Source: Halalkalicoccus jeotgali B3 (GTDB lineage Archaea; Halobacteriota; Halobacteria; Halobacteriales; Halalkalicoccaceae). From it: a stretch of 64,000 bases of DNA. The position numbers and the translations under genes were made by a program. Location of the stretch: NCBI RefSeq assembly GCF_000196895.1, contig NC_014297.1:434001-498000 (forward strand), read 5' to 3'. Below are positions 3,996 to 13,202 of the stretch, piece by piece; positions within the stretch are counted from its first letter, which is position 1; every line of letters begins with the position of its first letter. The notes beneath the pieces were generated by a model. That model was not told the DNA's origin. It saw nothing but the letters and a program-made list of their open reading frames with translations, and made no database searches.

Positions 3996-5108
3996 TCACT
4001 CGTCGGCCAGCAACGCCTCGTCGCCGTGGTCCTCGCGCAGGCGATCGAGGGACTCGCGCTGTTCGTCGAGCCGCGGGGTCGGTTCCGCGAAGGCGAATTC
4101 GAACATCTCGCTCGGGTCGGCCTCGTACTCCTCGGCCCGGTCGATCAGGTCCGTGATCGACGCTTCGATCCCCTCCTCCATCTCGGCGATCCGGTCGTCG
4201 TCGAGCACTCCCTCGTCCCGAAGAAACCGTTCAAAACGGTCGATCGGGTCCTTCTGGCGCCACTCCTCGACCTCCGCGTCGTCGCGGTACATCGAGGGGT
4301 CGTCGGCGGTGGTGTGAGCGCCGTAGCGGTACTGAACCGCCTCGATCAGCGTCGGACGGGCCTCGCTTTCGTCGGGATCGAGCGCCTTCTGTCGGGCGGC
4401 CTTTGTCACTGCGTACATCGCGAGCGGGTCCATGCCGTCGACCTGCACGCCCTCGAACCCGTAGGCCGCCGCCTTCCCCGCGAGGGTCTCGCTCATCGTC
4501 TGGCGTTCCCTCGGAATCGAAATCGCCCACCCGTTGTTGTTACAGACGAAGACCGACGGGGTGTCGAACACCCCCGCGAAGTTCATCGCCTCGTGGAAGT
4601 CGCCCTCGCTCGTCGCGCCGTCCCCGAAGTGTGCGACGGTCGCTTTGTCGTCCCCGTCGAGTTTCGCGGCCCACGCGTAGCCGACGGCGTGGGGGAGGTG
4701 GTCGCCGATGGTGATGTTCAGCGGGAGCACGTCGAGGTCGGCAAGACGGGCGTTGCCGGCCTCGTGGCCCATCCAATAGAGGAGATACTCCCAGGGCATT
4801 CCCCTGGGAACGAGCGCGCCGTGCTCGCGGTACTGATAGGAGAGCACGTCGCCGTCGGCCAGTGCGTAGGTACTGCCGATCTGTGCGCCCTCCTGGCCGG
4901 CAAGCGACGAATAGGTCCCCATGCGCCCCTGGCGCTGGAGGCTGATCATGCGCTCGTCGAAGCGCCGACAGAAGCGCATGTCTCGATACATTCGCTCCAG
5001 CGTCTCGGGTGGGAGATCGGGAACGAGATCGGGCGCACGGACGCTCCCGTCGGGAGCGAGCACCTCGATTCGGTCCTCGGGTGCCCGCCGTAGTAGGGGT
5101 CGTGCCAT
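3996..5108 (-). CDS. pdhA: Pyruvate/2-oxoacid dehydrogenase E1 component, alpha subunit
   Basis: A 370-residue thiamine-diphosphate enzyme subunit that decarboxylates pyruvate or a branched 2-oxoacid and reductively acylates E2. The thiamine-binding motif runs from GDG at residues 162-164 to NNN at 190-192. The QGRMGTYSSLAGQEGAQ segment matches the haloarchaeal PdhA type. The frame is open to an ATG at 5171, but MARPLLRRAPEDRIEVL at 5108 matches family N-termini. No beta, E2 or E3 gene follows directly, so its partners lie elsewhere unless it pairs with the E1 beta at 9836. It differs clearly from the second E1 alpha at 8793. Confidence 0.85.
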   Translation of the reverse strand: MARPLLRRAPEDRIEVLAPDGSVRAPDLVPDLPPETLERMYRDMRFCRRFDERMISLQRQGRMGTYSSLAGQEGAQIGSTYALADGDVLSYQYREHGALVPRGMPWEYLLYWMGHEAGNARLADLDVLPLNITIGDHLPHAVGYAWAAKLDGDDKATVAHFGDGATSEGDFHEAMNFAGVFDTPSVFVCNNNGWAISIPRERQTMSETLAGKAAAYGFEGVQVDGMDPLAMYAVTKAARQKALDPDESEARPTLIEAVQYRYGAHTTADDPSMYRDDAEVEEWRQKDPIDRFERFLRDEGVLDDDRIAEMEEGIEASITDLIDRAEEYEADPSEMFEFAFAEPTPRLDEQRESLDRLREDHGDEALLADE

Positions 5109-5593
5109 CGTGTCGGTACGGTCGGGGAGCGGAACCATAAAAACGCCCGCCCGTGGTCTCGGAAAAGCCACATTCGGATATCAGAAATCTTTATTATGGT
5201 GCGTGCTATACAACCACATACGCCTGCCGCCCGGGCGACGCGCGGTGGGTAACAGACCGATCGCATCGCGTTCCGACTACCACGGAAACACACTATCGAT
5301 CGAAAACAAGCCAACCACGCGCCAAACAGGTATCGCTCGCTCACTGCCGTATCGCCCGCCAAACAGGTATCGCCCGTTGATTACTGCGTCACGGCGGTCC
5401 GACTTCGGTCCTCCCTGTCGGGTCCGCCGACTCCGTGTTCTCCCGATAGCACCGCATCAACCCCTCGGTAGTGACGGTCGGCGTTCCCGGCCGGCGATCG
5501 ACCGGCCCGAGACGTTTCGAGGGTTCGCTGAGCGACGGATTTTTGGTTCCGTTCGTCCGAGAGTCCGGGTATCGCGAAACAGGGAGCCGATAC
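5109..5593. other. Divergent intergenic region between E1 alpha and the BASS transporter
   Basis: No convincing gene is seen. On the minus strand an AT-rich stretch near 5183-5195 could be the TATA element for E1 alpha. A 16-base direct repeat lies at 5321-5373. An in-frame ATG for the transporter occurs at 5471, but the arginine-rich extension it would add is not convincing as protein. Confidence 0.5.
5321..5373. repeat. Pair of 16-bp direct repeats, 37 bp apart
   Basis: GCCAAACAGGTATCGC occurs at 5321-5336 and again, identically, at 5358-5373. Spacing of 37 bp is about 3.5 helical turns. It lies between the divergent E1 alpha and BASS transporter genes and could be a regulator site. Function is inferred from position only. 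Confidence 0.55.
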
Positions 5594-6499: not shown

Positions 6500-6571
6500 G
6501 GATCGTCGTCCGCACTCGATGGCTCTCCCATACATTGTTAATAGATAGCACGTGTGAGTGATAGCAGAGCC

Positions 6572-7522
6572 ATGGCGACCGAACTCCATCCGCAGGCTGA
6601 GGAACTGCTTCACGACCTTTCGGCGAGTGGCGTCCCGCCGCTGTATCGCCAATCGGTCGCCGAGGCCCGCGATACGTACCTCGAGTTGACCGTCACGGAT
6701 GGGGAGCCGGAACCGGTCGAACGGGTCCTCGAGACGGCCTTCGAGGGCCCGAACGGGTCGGTGCCGGTTCGGGCATATGATCCCGGCGACGACGGCGAGA
6801 CGCCCCGGTCGGCGCTCGTCTTCTATCACGGCGGAGGCTGGGTCGTCGGCGATCTCGACACCCACGACCTCGCCGCGCGTGCGCTCGCGAACGCGGCCGG
6901 GTGTGTCGTCGTCTCGGTCGACTACCGTCGCGCGCCCGAACACCCGTTTCCCGCGGCCCTCGAAGACTGCTACGGTGCACTCGAGTGGTTCGCCGATGAC
7001 CCCGATCTCGGGGTGGCGATCGACCCCGGCCGGATCGCCGTCGGCGGCGACAGTGCCGGAGGGACCCTCGCGGCGGGCGTCGCGTTGCTGGCGCGCGACC
7101 GCGACGGCCCCGACATCGCGCGCCAACTGCTCGCCTACCCCGTGACCGACCACGCCTTCGACACCGATTCGTACACCGAGAACGCGAGCGGCTACTTCAT
7201 CACCCGCGGGGACATGGAACGGTTCTGGAACGAGTACCTGGAGGTCGATTTCGACGGTGCCCACCCGTACGTCTCCCCGCTTTGCGTTTCCGATCTCGCC
7301 GGGGTGGCACCGGCGACGGTCCTAACTGCAGGATTTGACCCGCTTCGCGACGAGGGGCGGGCCTACGCCGACCGCCTTGAGAACGCCGGCGTCCCGGTAA
7401 CCCGACTCGAGTATCCCGACATGATCCACGGCTTTCTCACGATGCTCGCCGACCCCGAGTGGGACCGGGCCCGGGAGGCGATCGATGCCCTCGCGAACGA
7501 CCTGCGTGACCTCGGGGACTGA
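6572..7522 (+). CDS. Alpha/beta-hydrolase esterase (hormone-sensitive lipase family)
   Basis: A 316-residue esterase. The oxyanion-hole motif HGGGW is at residues 86-90 and the nucleophile motif GDSAGG places the catalytic serine at 161. The acid is probably the Asp in AGFDPLRDE and the histidine that in DMIHGF, completing the triad of the HSL family that hydrolyses short acyl esters. A TATA-like TTGTTAATAGA lies about 30 bases before ATG 6572, supporting this start over GTG 6554. It has no signal peptide and is probably cytoplasmic. Confidence 0.9.
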   Translation: MATELHPQAEELLHDLSASGVPPLYRQSVAEARDTYLELTVTDGEPEPVERVLETAFEGPNGSVPVRAYDPGDDGETPRSALVFYHGGGWVVGDLDTHDLAARALANAAGCVVVSVDYRRAPEHPFPAALEDCYGALEWFADDPDLGVAIDPGRIAVGGDSAGGTLAAGVALLARDRDGPDIARQLLAYPVTDHAFDTDSYTENASGYFITRGDMERFWNEYLEVDFDGAHPYVSPLCVSDLAGVAPATVLTAGFDPLRDEGRAYADRLENAGVPVTRLEYPDMIHGFLTMLADPEWDRAREAIDALANDLRDLGD

Positions 7523-8792: not shown

Positions 8793-9836
8793 ATGCCAAC
8801 CATCGATCTGGAGACCGAGACCGGACGCGAGGAGGCGTTGCGGCGGATGCTCACGATCCGACAGTTCGACACGACGGCGGGCGAACGGTTCGCCGACGGC
8901 GAAATACCGGGGTTCGTCCACCTCTACATCGGCGAGGAGGCGGTGGGGGTGGGCGCGTGTGCTGCCCTGGAAGACGACGACTACATCACGAGCACCCATC
9001 GGGGCCACGGCCACTGTATCGCGAAGGGGCTCGACCCCAAACCCATGATGGCCGAACTCTACGGCAAACGCGAGGGCTACTGCAACGGGAAGGGCGGCTC
9101 GATGCACATCGCGGACGTCGACGCCGGCATGCTCGGAGCGAACGGGATCGTCGGGGCGGGCCCGCCGCTGGGGACGGGCGCGGCGCTGACGATCGACCGG
9201 AAGGACGAGGACCGGGTCGCACTGTCGTTTCTGGGCGACGGGGCGGTCGCCCAGGGGCAGGTCCACTCGGCGGCGAACCTCGCGGCGACGTGGGACCTCC
9301 CCGTGATCTTCCTCGTCGAGAACAACGGTTACGGCGAGGGGACGCCGGCCGAGATGCAACACAACGTCGAGAACCTGAGCGCCACCGCCGGCGCGTACAA
9401 CGTCCCGGGGATCACCGTCGACGGGATGGACATTACCGCGGTCAACGAGGCGGTGACGGAGGCCCGCGAACGGGCCCGCGCCGGGGACGGCCCGACGTTC
9501 ATCGAGGCCGAGACCTATCGGTTCCACGGCCACTTCGAGGGCGACGAGGAGCTGTATCGGGAGGACGACGAGGTCGAACGCTGGCAGGCCCGCGACCCCA
9601 TCGAGACGTTCGCCCAGCGCCTGATCGACCGGGACGAACTCACAGACGAGGAGTACGAGGCCCTCCAGTCGGAAGTCGAGACGACCATCGAGGAGGCCCT
9701 CGAATACGCCCAGAGCGCGGAGGAGCCCGCCCCCGAGGAAGCCTACGACGACATGTTCGCCGCCGAGGTACCCGAAATCACGGAGTTCGCACGGCGGGTG
9801 CGTGCGGACGGGAGCGGTCACGGGGGTGAGCGCTGA
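8793..9836 (+). CDS. acoA: Acetoin/pyruvate-type dehydrogenase E1 alpha subunit (AcoA-like)
   Basis: A 347-residue thiamine-diphosphate subunit. The thiamine motif runs from GDG (148-150) to NN (177-178), and the HRGHGHCIAKG and GKGGSMH segments are typical of AcoA/TPP-dependent acetoin dehydrogenase alpha and of related PDH E1 alpha. A TATA-like TTATTAT at 8763-8769 sits about 25-30 bases before the ATG. The stop overlaps the E1 beta start by one base (TGATG), so the two are translationally coupled. With AcoX downstream, acetoin or a related short 2-oxo substrate is the best guess. Confidence 0.85.
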   Translation: MPTIDLETETGREEALRRMLTIRQFDTTAGERFADGEIPGFVHLYIGEEAVGVGACAALEDDDYITSTHRGHGHCIAKGLDPKPMMAELYGKREGYCNGKGGSMHIADVDAGMLGANGIVGAGPPLGTGAALTIDRKDEDRVALSFLGDGAVAQGQVHSAANLAATWDLPVIFLVENNGYGEGTPAEMQHNVENLSATAGAYNVPGITVDGMDITAVNEAVTEARERARAGDGPTFIEAETYRFHGHFEGDEELYREDDEVERWQARDPIETFAQRLIDRDELTDEEYEALQSEVETTIEEALEYAQSAEEPAPEEAYDDMFAAEVPEITEFARRVRADGSGHGGER

Positions 9837-10837
9837 TGGCCAGCGCCGGCCTCGAGGCCGAACAGACGGAGACGATGACGGTGCGGGAGGCGATCCGCGA
9901 GACGCTGCGCGAGGAGTTGGCCCGCGACGAGGACGTCTTCCTGATGGGCGAGGACATCGCGACGATGGGCGGCGTCCTCGACGTCACCGGCGACCTCCAC
10001 GAGCAGTTCGGCAAGGACCGCGTGCGGGATACGCCCATCGGCGAGTCGGGGTTCATGGGCGCGGCGACGGGTGCGGCCGCCACCGGCTCGCGTCCCGTCG
10101 TCGAGATCATGTTCTCGGATTTCGTGGGGGTCGCGATGGAACAGATCATGAACCAGATGGCGAAGATGCGCTACATGTTCGGCGGGAAGACCGAGATGCC
10201 CGTCACCGTCCGCACCACCGAGGGCGGCGGTATGGGTGCGGCCAGCCAGCACTCGGGGACCGTCCACTCCTGGATCGCCCACTTCCCCGGGTTGCTGGCC
10301 GTCGCCCCCGGAACGCCCGCCGCCGCCAAAGGACTCCTCAAGTCGGCGATCCGCTCGGACGATCCCGTCTTCTTCTTCGAGAACAAGATGATCTACGAGC
10401 AGTCGGGCGAGGTGCCCACCGACGAGGACTTCACGATCCCGCTGGGCGAGGCCAGCGTCGAGCGCGAGGGCGCGGACGTAACCGTGGTCGCGACCCAGCG
10501 ACTCGTCGGCGAGTCGCTATCGGTGGCCGACGACCTCGAGGGTGATACCGACGTCGAGGTGATCGACCTCCGGTCGCTGTACCCGCTCGATACCGACACC
10601 ATCGCCGAGAGCCTCGCGAAGACCGGTCGGCTCGTGGTCGCCGACGAGAGCCCGCTTTCGTATGGCGTCCACGCGGAGGTGATGGCTCGCGCGGTCGAGG
10701 ACGCCTTCTACAGCCTCGACGCGCCGATCCAGCGGGTGGGCGTGCCCGATACGCACATCCCCTTTAGCCCCTCGCTCGAACGCGAGGTCGTCCCCGACAG
10801 CGCCCAAGTCAGGGAGGCCATCGAGCGGATCGCCTAA
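9836..10837 (+). CDS. acoB: Acetoin/pyruvate-type dehydrogenase E1 beta subunit (AcoB-like)
   Basis: A 333-residue transketolase pyrimidine-binding plus C-terminal domain protein that completes the heterotetrameric E1 with the upstream alpha subunit. Conserved segments are MGEDIATMGG, DTPIGESGF, the EIMFSDF stretch and FFENKMIY. The C-terminal transketolase domain starts at about residue 200 with the TVVATQRLV strand. It overlaps the alpha stop by one base and is followed after two bases by the AcoX-like gene, giving a three-gene operon. Confidence 0.88.
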   Translation: MASAGLEAEQTETMTVREAIRETLREELARDEDVFLMGEDIATMGGVLDVTGDLHEQFGKDRVRDTPIGESGFMGAATGAAATGSRPVVEIMFSDFVGVAMEQIMNQMAKMRYMFGGKTEMPVTVRTTEGGGMGAASQHSGTVHSWIAHFPGLLAVAPGTPAAAKGLLKSAIRSDDPVFFFENKMIYEQSGEVPTDEDFTIPLGEASVEREGADVTVVATQRLVGESLSVADDLEGDTDVEVIDLRSLYPLDTDTIAESLAKTGRLVVADESPLSYGVHAEVMARAVEDAFYSLDAPIQRVGVPDTHIPFSPSLEREVVPDSAQVREAIERIA

Positions 10838-10839
10838 CG

Positions 10840-11826
10840 GTGGGCGAGACGGTCGGACTGATTGTCAATCCCGCCGCCGGGCGCGACATCCGGCGACTGA
10901 CCGGCGGCGCGAGCGTCGTCGACAACTACGCGAAGCGCCGGGTCGCAGAGTGCGTCCTCGAGGGCCTGACTAGCGTTCCCGACCCGCCGACAGCGCTCGT
11001 AATGCCCGATACGGCGCGGATCGCCGCGAGCGCCGCCGAGGAGGTCCCGGACGCCGAGACAGCGCTGCTCGATCTCGCCATCGAGGGGTCCGCCGCCGAC
11101 ACCCGCCGGGCCGCGGCGCGCTTTCGCGAGGAGGCCGACGCGATCGTCGTCCTCGGGGGCGACGGGACGAGCCGCGACACCGCCCTCGAATGCGGTGAGG
11201 TCCCACTCGTTTCGGTCTCGACGGGGACGAACAACGTTGTCCCCACGGCGGTCGACGGCACGGTCGCCGGGGCGGCCGCCGCGCTCGTCGCGACCGGCGC
11301 GGTCGAGGAGCAAGACGTCACGTATCGCCACGGAATGGTCGAGGCCCACACGGCATCGGGCGAGACCGTCACCGGGCTGGCGTCGGTCGAACTCTCGAAC
11401 CGGTCGTTTATCGGAACCCGGGCGACGCTCGACCCCGCGGACCTCGCCGGCGGGATCGTCTCGCGGGCGAACCCCGCCGACATCGGCCTCAGCAGCGTCG
11501 CGGGTGCGATCGCGTCGCTCGCACCCGACGATTCGGGGGCGATCGGGCTCCGACTCGTCGATCCCGACCTGGCCCCACGGACCGGCCGGGCGATCGTCGC
11601 GCCCGGCGTCGTCGCCGGGGTGGGAATCGAGGACCAGCGCCACCTCGCCGAGGGGGAGTCGATGACCGTCGACGTCGAGGAGGGCGTCGTCGGAGCCGAC
11701 GGCGAGCGCGAACTCGAACTCGTCGACGAACTCGTCGAATTCCGCTCGGCCGAGCGGGGCCCGCGGCTCGTCTCCGTGGCGACACTCTTCGAGGCCGCCG
11801 CCGGTACCGGCGTCTTCGAGGACTGA
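10840..11826 (+). CDS. acoX: AcoX-like NAD-kinase-fold protein
   Basis: A 328-residue protein starting at GTG 10840, two bases after the E1 beta stop. It has the NAD/diacylglycerol-kinase fold: GLIVNPAAGRD at the start, the phosphate-loop motif VVLGGDGTSRD near residue 105, and STGTNN, the typical ATP/NAD pocket. AcoX proteins of this kind accompany acetoin dehydrogenase genes in bacteria, and their precise biochemical role is not settled. The context here (acoA-acoB-acoX) supports that name better than a housekeeping NAD kinase. Confidence 0.8.
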   Translation: MGETVGLIVNPAAGRDIRRLTGGASVVDNYAKRRVAECVLEGLTSVPDPPTALVMPDTARIAASAAEEVPDAETALLDLAIEGSAADTRRAAARFREEADAIVVLGGDGTSRDTALECGEVPLVSVSTGTNNVVPTAVDGTVAGAAAALVATGAVEEQDVTYRHGMVEAHTASGETVTGLASVELSNRSFIGTRATLDPADLAGGIVSRANPADIGLSSVAGAIASLAPDDSGAIGLRLVDPDLAPRTGRAIVAPGVVAGVGIEDQRHLAEGESMTVDVEEGVVGADGERELELVDELVEFRSAERGPRLVSVATLFEAAAGTGVFED

Positions 11827-11843: not shown

Positions 11844-13202
11844 CTACCGCCGATACGTCCGCAGGACGAGTTCCGGGATGTCCCCGATCCGTTCGAGCAA
11901 CGTCTCGAGGAACGCTTCGGCGTCCCCATCGTCGAGAACGCGCGGGTCGTAGGCCAGCGACAGCGACAGACACCGTTCGAGCGAGACGCCGTTCTCGGCG
12001 GGTGTAGCTCGCCGGCGCGAACTGTCGACCAGCAGTCCGGCGACCGTCGGAGCCGTGGGAAGCGACTCGACGCCGCCCTCGAACTCCTCTTCGAGTGCGA
12101 GCGCGAACGTCGCGTGCTTGTCCGAGGCGTCGCTTGCGCCCGAGGTGGCTCCGCGCCGGGCCGCGACGAGGTCCGCGAACGACCGGTCCTCGACGCCCTC
12201 GATCACGGGCGTGAGCAGTTCCCCGTCGGATTCGGCCGCGAGCGCGACGTCCTGTCGGGACCTGAGCTGGTGAGTGTCGTCCGCGAACGTCCCGTTGAAC
12301 GCCGGATGGGCCTCGAGTGCCGCCGAGACTGCCACGAGCAACACGTCCAGTTGGGAGGTCTCGAGGTCGAAGGCTCGCTCGGCGAGGTCGGTCGTCTCGA
12401 TCAGGGTATCGGCCGTCTCGCCCGCGACCACGAGCGTCGCGGTGCGATACCGGTCCCGACTCTCGGCCCGTTCGTCCCCGGTGACCGTGGGTTCGGCGGT
12501 CGCCGGCGCGTCCTCGACTGCGGCCTCGACGTCGTCTTCGGTGATCGCACCCCCCGGTCCCGAGCCCTCGACGACGCTCGGATCGACCCCGAGTTCCTCG
12601 GCGCGGCGTCTCGCCCGGGGTGAGGCTTTGACCTGCTCGGTCGCCGTCCGAGCGCTCTCGCCCCCGGACGCCGCCGCCTCGACGTCGTCCTCGGTGATCG
12701 CTCCCCCCGGTCCCGAGCCCTCGATGGTGGCGAGCGCGACGTCGAGTTCCGACGCCCGGCGCTCGGCACGGGGCGAGGCCTTCGGTTTCTCGCCCGTCTG
12801 CTGGGAACTCGACGTCGCGCTCGTGGTTCCGTCGGCGTCCGCGGTCGCTTCGACCGGCTCCTCCGGCTCGGCCGGTTCGGCGGTATCCCCCGAATCCGCC
12901 GATTCAGCCGAGGCCGCCTGCTCCCCGTCCTCGAACTCCTCTGTGAGCGAGCCGATGTCCTCCTCGGCGCCGGCGACGATCCCGATGGGCGTTCCCGGCG
13001 GAACCGTTTCGCCCTCCTCGAGGTCGATCAGCCGGAGGACACCGTCCTCTCGGGCCTCGATCTCGCCGATACTCTTTTCGGACTCGATCTCCGCGATCAC
13101 GTCGCCCTCCTCGACGGGATCGTCCTCCCCGATGTGCCATTCGAGGAGCGTTCCCCGTTCCATTTCGAGCCCTAGCTTCGGCATCTTGACAACGTATCCC
13201 AT
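11844..13202 (-). CDS. Lipoyl E2 acyltransferase-like protein with degenerate catalytic site
   Basis: A 452-residue protein. Residues 1-78 are a lipoyl domain with the modified lysine in EIESEKS (Lys 43). Two peripheral-subunit-binding domains follow at about 141-176 and 192-228, each starting KASPRA and containing GSGPGGAITEDDV, joined by acidic Ala/Glu/Thr-rich linkers. Residues about 245-452 correspond to the acyltransferase domain. There the usual DHRVxDG active-site motif reads DPRVLDDGD (residues 419-427), so the catalytic histidine is a proline, and the GTFT motif has become HATFALAL. The gene is convergent with acoABX (17 bases). It may carry lipoyl groups and bind E1/E3 without normal acyl transfer. 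No E3 gene is in the window. Confidence 0.82.
   Translation of the reverse strand: MGYVVKMPKLGLEMERGTLLEWHIGEDDPVEEGDVIAEIESEKSIGEIEAREDGVLRLIDLEEGETVPPGTPIGIVAGAEEDIGSLTEEFEDGEQAASAESADSGDTAEPAEPEEPVEATADADGTTSATSSSQQTGEKPKASPRAERRASELDVALATIEGSGPGGAITEDDVEAAASGGESARTATEQVKASPRARRRAEELGVDPSVVEGSGPGGAITEDDVEAAVEDAPATAEPTVTGDERAESRDRYRTATLVVAGETADTLIETTDLAERAFDLETSQLDVLLVAVSAALEAHPAFNGTFADDTHQLRSRQDVALAAESDGELLTPVIEGVEDRSFADLVAARRGATSGASDASDKHATFALALEEEFEGGVESLPTAPTVAGLLVDSSRRRATPAENGVSLERCLSLSLAYDPRVLDDGDAEAFLETLLERIGDIPELVLRTYRR

Follow-up and report, generated by a model that had tools for sequence, protein, structure and literature searches.

In the 64,000-nucleotide stretch of the Halalkalicoccus jeotgali B3 genome that we analyzed (NC_014297.1, positions 434,001 to 498,000; below, the window), a gene on the reverse strand (11844..13202) encodes a 452-amino-acid protein, here called psE2, with a lipoyl domain, two E3-binding domains, and a degenerate E2 catalytic domain. 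The open reading frame starts with ATG and contains no internal stops. The lipoyl domain (PF00364, Biotin_lipoyl; 51 bits) spans residues 5 to 74 (12981..13190) and has the lipoyl lysine, Lys43 (13074-13076), in a conserved ESEKS motif. Two stretches match the E3_binding family (PF02817; 91 bits), the second at residues 191 to 226 (12525..12632) and the first at approximately residues 141 to 176 (12675..12782), with limits taken from the helices of a structural model. The acyltransferase domain (PF00198, 2-oxoacid_dh; 55 bits) lies at residues 281 to 445 (11868..12362) and matches profile positions 58 to 230 only; it is N-terminally incomplete, and the arm and helix normally marked by GMRxTIAxRL are lost or scrambled. 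The canonical DHRVxDG reads D-P420-R-V-L-D-D, with the Pro420 codon (11943..11945) where the catalytic His would be encoded, and GTFTxTN has become ATFALAL. All of these features are on the reverse strand. psE2 therefore has the lipoyl and subunit-binding domains of an active E2 and lacks its catalytic His and N-terminal arm. A preliminary description of the gene had reported the degenerate DHRVxDG, the altered GTFT, and the intact lipoyl lysine and two binding domains, and the reading frame and Pfam matches bear it out on each point (K43, P420, and ATFALAL). An AlphaFold model (pLDDT, 72.5; pTM, 0.45) keeps an E2-like fold and matches E2 cores with TM scores of about 0.6 to 0.74 (normalized by target length), as well as 7r5m, the core-binding domain of a fungal E3BP bound to an E2 core; since intact homologues were in the AlphaFold alignment, this fold is no independent proof. 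Two lipoate/biotin ligase family genes in the genome make lipoylation of psE2 plausible.

On the forward strand lie genes for an AcoA-like E1 alpha subunit (8793..9836; 49% identity to bacterial AcoA), an AcoB-like E1 beta subunit (9836..10837; 43 to 46% to bacterial AcoB), and an AcoX-like protein of the NAD kinase family (10840..11826; 33% to bacterial AcoX), the three adjacent to one another as in an AcoX-type complex. Also on this strand, 4.3 kb from psE2, is a gene encoding an alpha/beta hydrolase (6554..7522; PF07859, LipP1/HSL type) with intact HGGGW, GDSAGG, FDPLRDEG, and IHGF motifs, which we propose as an acyl-releasing partner. An opposite-strand Gfo/Idh gene stands between it and the E1 genes. 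The preliminary description was confined to positions 11844 to 13202, outside which the hydrolase gene falls, and did not connect it to psE2. The window neighbors past the hydrolase (enolase-superfamily, LUD, TRAP-type transporter, and ADH genes) are not conserved in relatives and give no clue to the substrate.

We surveyed 392 genomes of the order by means of E1 beta, reading up to 20 kb around the matches, and compared 89 loci with E1 alpha, E1 beta, and E2, nearly all from this survey. The homologues found in genome and contig searches sort into group A, a clade of E2s without the catalytic His (21 surveyed loci), and group B, their sister E2s (66 aligned). In the 76 loci bearing AcoX, the genes for E1 alpha, E1 beta, and AcoX stand together and, as mapped, are generally directed towards the E2 gene. 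The loci of the sister E2s share this plan, converging on an E2 with about 40 to 50% identity to psE2, but these E2s have an intact FDHRVVDGADA motif or one close to it, many carry a C-terminal OsmC domain, and their loci have no hydrolase.

An alignment of the catalytic domains shows that the loss of active-site residues is a trait of the whole clade. The catalytic His is present in 0/21 group A proteins versus 66/66 in group B, Asp(+4) in 5/21 versus 66/66, and the Ser/Thr of GTFTxS/T in 2/21 versus 66/66. In place of the His, group A has Thr (13 proteins), Ala (4), Pro (2), or Ser (2), giving the motifs YDTR, YDSR, YDAR, or YDPR in proteins mostly of 431 to 504 amino acids, with YDTN and YDTC as rare variants and YHPR in a gene truncated by a contig edge. 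Asp(-1) and Arg(+1) are retained in 20/21 and 19/21, respectively. Realignment gave no sign of a pocket His that would have overturned the preliminary reading: no replacement His is conserved near the motif in group A, and the sole conserved His of the group lies 124 alignment columns upstream of the motif and also occurs in 65/66 active-type E2s. In the E2 tree (FastTree), group A forms one clade (100, a starred branch), to be read with caution because its branches are long. The dN/dS ratio of the degenerate domain between close pairs is 0.15 to 0.44, indicating purifying selection.

The preliminary description took the His as required for acyl transfer. The residue does matter, but absolute need is an overstatement: in Escherichia coli E2o, complex activity was 2.1% with His375Ala, about 13% with the Gly replacement, and about 60% with His375Trp, while Asp379Ala left about 10%, a roughly 10-fold loss (PMC5986005). 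Since E2o tolerates some His replacements, His loss alone does not prove inactivity. The combined erosion of the His, Asp(+4), and Ser/Thr nevertheless makes it likely, judged from the residues, that psE2 is catalytically inactive.

A normal E2 was sought in the same genome and found (C1:30383), scoring 319 bits against Pfam 2-oxoacid_dh versus 55 for psE2. It belongs to a separate pyruvate dehydrogenase (PDH) operon, about 415 kb from psE2, that has E1 and E3 genes of its own; the psE2 locus itself has no active E2. The genome further contains four E1 alpha genes, one clear E3-type gene, and a second, weak Pyr_redox_dim match. An intact pyruvate dehydrogenase E2 was likewise present elsewhere in 22/22 psE2 genomes checked.

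The hydrolase follows the loss of the His strictly. A homologue was found in 21/21 loci with a His-less E2 versus 0/68 with a His-bearing E2, 55 of which also encode AcoX (a naive Fisher test versus these 55, ignoring kinship, gives P = 3e-19), and its catalytic Ser, His, and Asp region is conserved in 21/21. Across the 392 genomes, the top 22 homologues of the hydrolase are exactly the members of the group A loci plus that of a partial locus in genome G132. The family as such is not rare, with paralogs being common (244 genomes at E ≤ 1e-70). In 8 loci the gene is upstream of E1 alpha and shares the E1 strand; in the other 13 it is upstream of psE2 and shares the psE2 strand. With two placements, always within the locus, the linkage has outlived rearrangement. 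Two plasmid records from outside the sample, which played no part in forming the hydrolase idea, also combine the hydrolase with a His-less E2: those of Halocatena marina (YDTRAVG) and Natrinema gelatinilyticum (YDTHAID). The psE2 of the latter (L153:7171-8514, reverse strand) has a His one residue past the lost one.

A tree of the concatenated E1 subunits requires 4 changes of the paired state, of which at least 3 fall on starred branches, and hydrolase presence and His loss always shift together on it; for example, the group A locus L058 stands beside three group B loci. Because psE2 apparently had one origin, it and the hydrolase probably moved together. A kinship-corrected sign test on the approximately 3 independent changes gives P = 0.25; as three independent pairs cannot reach significance, the association leans jointly on linkage, gene fusions, and precedent.

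In three genomes (G040, G110, and G132), lipoyl domain, E3-binding domain, and hydrolase are encoded in a single open frame, as seen by Pfam for the G040 protein and by alignment for the other two; in G110, unknown bases between the lipoyl part and the E3-binding end mean that continuity there is only partly supported. G040 and G110 also retain a separate psE2 gene. Judged by their domains, these fusions are E2-shaped proteins with the hydrolase as the predicted catalytic domain. In G040, an amidohydrolase gene and a DUF59-type gene (by eye) adjoin the fusion (L058:12781-14280, reverse strand).

A comparable design exists in bacteria. We examined plasmid-borne acoXABC loci from Paraburkholderia phenoliruptrix and Chelatococcus, where AcoC consists of a lipoyl domain (PF00364) and a PF00561 hydrolase with no E2 catalytic domain and is annotated as an acetyltransferase subunit. 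Like the psE2 locus, proteobacterial AcoC (NF011457) adjoins AcoX, AcoA, and AcoB, and like the haloarchaeal system it pairs a lipoyl carrier with an alpha/beta hydrolase and has no working E2 catalytic domain. AcoC, however, is one protein in which no E3-binding domain was found, whereas the haloarchaeal hydrolase is of the PF07859 family and mostly a separate gene, as in the window, and its carrier keeps the E3-binding and dead E2 domains; lipoyl-hydrolase fusion is confined here to the PF07859 proteins of G040, G110, and G132. Against NF011457, psE2 scored 66 bits and the fusion 80 bits versus a curated cutoff of 307, and only the lipoyl-side part matched. BLAST detected no similarity between the haloarchaeal hydrolase and that of AcoC, which makes the arrangement look like a parallel replacement.

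We propose, with a probability of roughly 0.6, that psE2 serves an AcoX-type complex as its lipoyl carrier and scaffold and that the co-encoded hydrolase of this complex releases or transfers the acyl group. The complex would be acetoin-dehydrogenase-like, made up of E1 alpha, E1 beta, AcoX, and psE2. The noncatalytic psE2 would carry the lipoyl arm, its two subunit-binding domains would bind E3 and/or E1, and its E2 core fold is probably kept as a scaffold. E1 would load an acyl group on the lipoyl arm, the catalytic Ser of the hydrolase (6554-7522) would take it off in place of the dead acyltransferase domain and pass it to CoA (as the AcoC annotation implies) or water, and E3 would reoxidize the lipoyl group. 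Human ABHD11 provides an example of an alpha/beta hydrolase that cleaves acyl-lipoyl thioesters of E2 (PMC12643935), and E3BP one of an E2 that lacks the His yet is maintained in a structural role (PMC10156792). The sequences themselves show the clade-wide loss of catalytic residues, the conserved carrier parts, the strict hydrolase linkage, and the lipoyl-hydrolase fusions, whereas lipoylation, acyl chemistry, acceptor, substrate, and assembly are inferred. The carrier or scaffold role suggested in the preliminary description gains support from the conserved clade, in which several active-site positions are eroded together while the lipoyl and E3-binding parts are intact, and its suspicion of an atypical 2-oxoacid dehydrogenase gains from the AcoX neighbor and the Aco-like E1 subunits. 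Its further suggestion of another chemistry probably holds for the complex, where the hydrolase tracks the loss and is fused to the carrier in three genomes, but not for psE2 itself.

Two readings give psE2 or the hydrolase a different part. Animal E3BP (protein X, PDHX) shares the domain order of E2 and is distinguished from it by the same missing His (PMC10156792). With its lipoyl and subunit-binding domains, E2 domain order, and E2 fold without the catalytic His (the domain being inactive as far as its residues tell), psE2 resembles E3BP and might likewise be a structural, lipoyl-bearing, E3-binding subunit, with the PDH E2 transferring the acyl group in trans and the hydrolase serving repair or being unrelated. 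The intact E2 in all 22 psE2 genomes and the match of the predicted structure to E2 cores and 7r5m are consistent with this. E3BP, however, works in a complex with its own active E2, whereas the psE2 locus has a hydrolase and the normal E2 belongs to a PDH operon some 415 kb off; the N-terminal arm of the psE2 catalytic domain is lost or scrambled; and the perfect hydrolase link and the lipoyl-hydrolase fusions would be left unexplained. We find this reading rather unlikely. PF07859 enzymes, common in haloarchaea, usually act as esterases, so the hydrolase could instead act on the substrate (an ester or lactone), or it could clear dead-end lipoyl adducts, with psE2 keeping a slow, His-free transfer. 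ABHD11, a lipoyl-adduct thioesterase, acts on acyl-lipoyl E2 as our hydrolase is proposed to do, but it is a repair enzyme of mitochondria, and no fusion of it to a lipoyl carrier is known. The residual activities of the His375 variants and the retained Asp(-1) and Arg(+1) would allow slow transfer, but psE2 lacks Asp(+4) in 16/21 and the Ser/Thr in 19/21, the Asp379Ala change alone costs E2o about 10-fold, and loci with a normal E2 never have the hydrolase, though adducts would arise there too. This makes such a role distinctly unlikely.

That psE2 is a dying E2, decaying or misannotated, is highly improbable. One relative, the psE2 of genome G331 (L091:6975-8460), is split over two frames by a frameshift or assembly error, but apart from it and the contig-edge L074 the relatives are full length and come from several haloarchaeal families, the degenerate domain is under purifying selection, and the two species outside the survey retain psE2 as well. 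For the window gene, the open reading frame, the full-length relatives, and the dN/dS values led us to reject frameshift or decay.

The carrier-plus-hydrolase reading bears on a step that is usually treated as fixed, as the E2 acyltransferase is taken for the core of 2-oxoacid dehydrogenase complexes. More tentatively, an HSL-type hydrolase may have replaced it in a lipoyl-dependent oxidative complex independently of bacterial AcoC, possibly freeing an acid rather than acyl-CoA. If so, the E2 step has been taken over by hydrolases on at least two occasions (AcoC and haloarchaea) and is swappable, and these loci offer concrete candidates for explaining the haloarchaeal 2-oxoacid complexes, whose substrates and role are a puzzle. 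Work on three E1 pairs of Haloferax excluded pyruvate and 2-oxoglutarate and identified no substrate (PMC8305020). Our search for literature joining haloarchaea, 2-oxoacid dehydrogenase, and lipoyl found none.

Two other candidates for the missing partner were rejected. OsmC is C-terminal on the E2 in many sister loci (L039-L046, L066-L068, and others) and occurs as a separate gene, beside E1 alpha, in just 4/21 psE2 loci (L065, L073, L091, and L094), a distribution that does not follow the loss. Since lipoyl proteins can reduce Ohr/OsmC peroxidases, the OsmC proteins of these loci may be peroxidases tied to the complex. Many loci have a small conserved glyoxalase/VOC gene (PF13669, with weak similarity to methylmalonyl-CoA epimerase) between AcoX and E2 (e.g., L054:9045-9554, reverse strand). 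Because it accompanies both E2 types, it does not follow the loss either, and it is absent from the window.

Elsewhere in the window, a second E1 alpha gene (3996-5171, reverse strand) has no adjacent E1 beta, and the next gene on its strand encodes a luciferase-like monooxygenase (PF00296; 2401-3390), as in L054. Judged by eye, a forward-strand gene at 217-2400 resembles one for an ADP-forming acyl-CoA synthetase, which could convert the acid to acyl-CoA if the hydrolase frees one; among the survey loci, genes like it were seen only in L054 and, partly, in L133.
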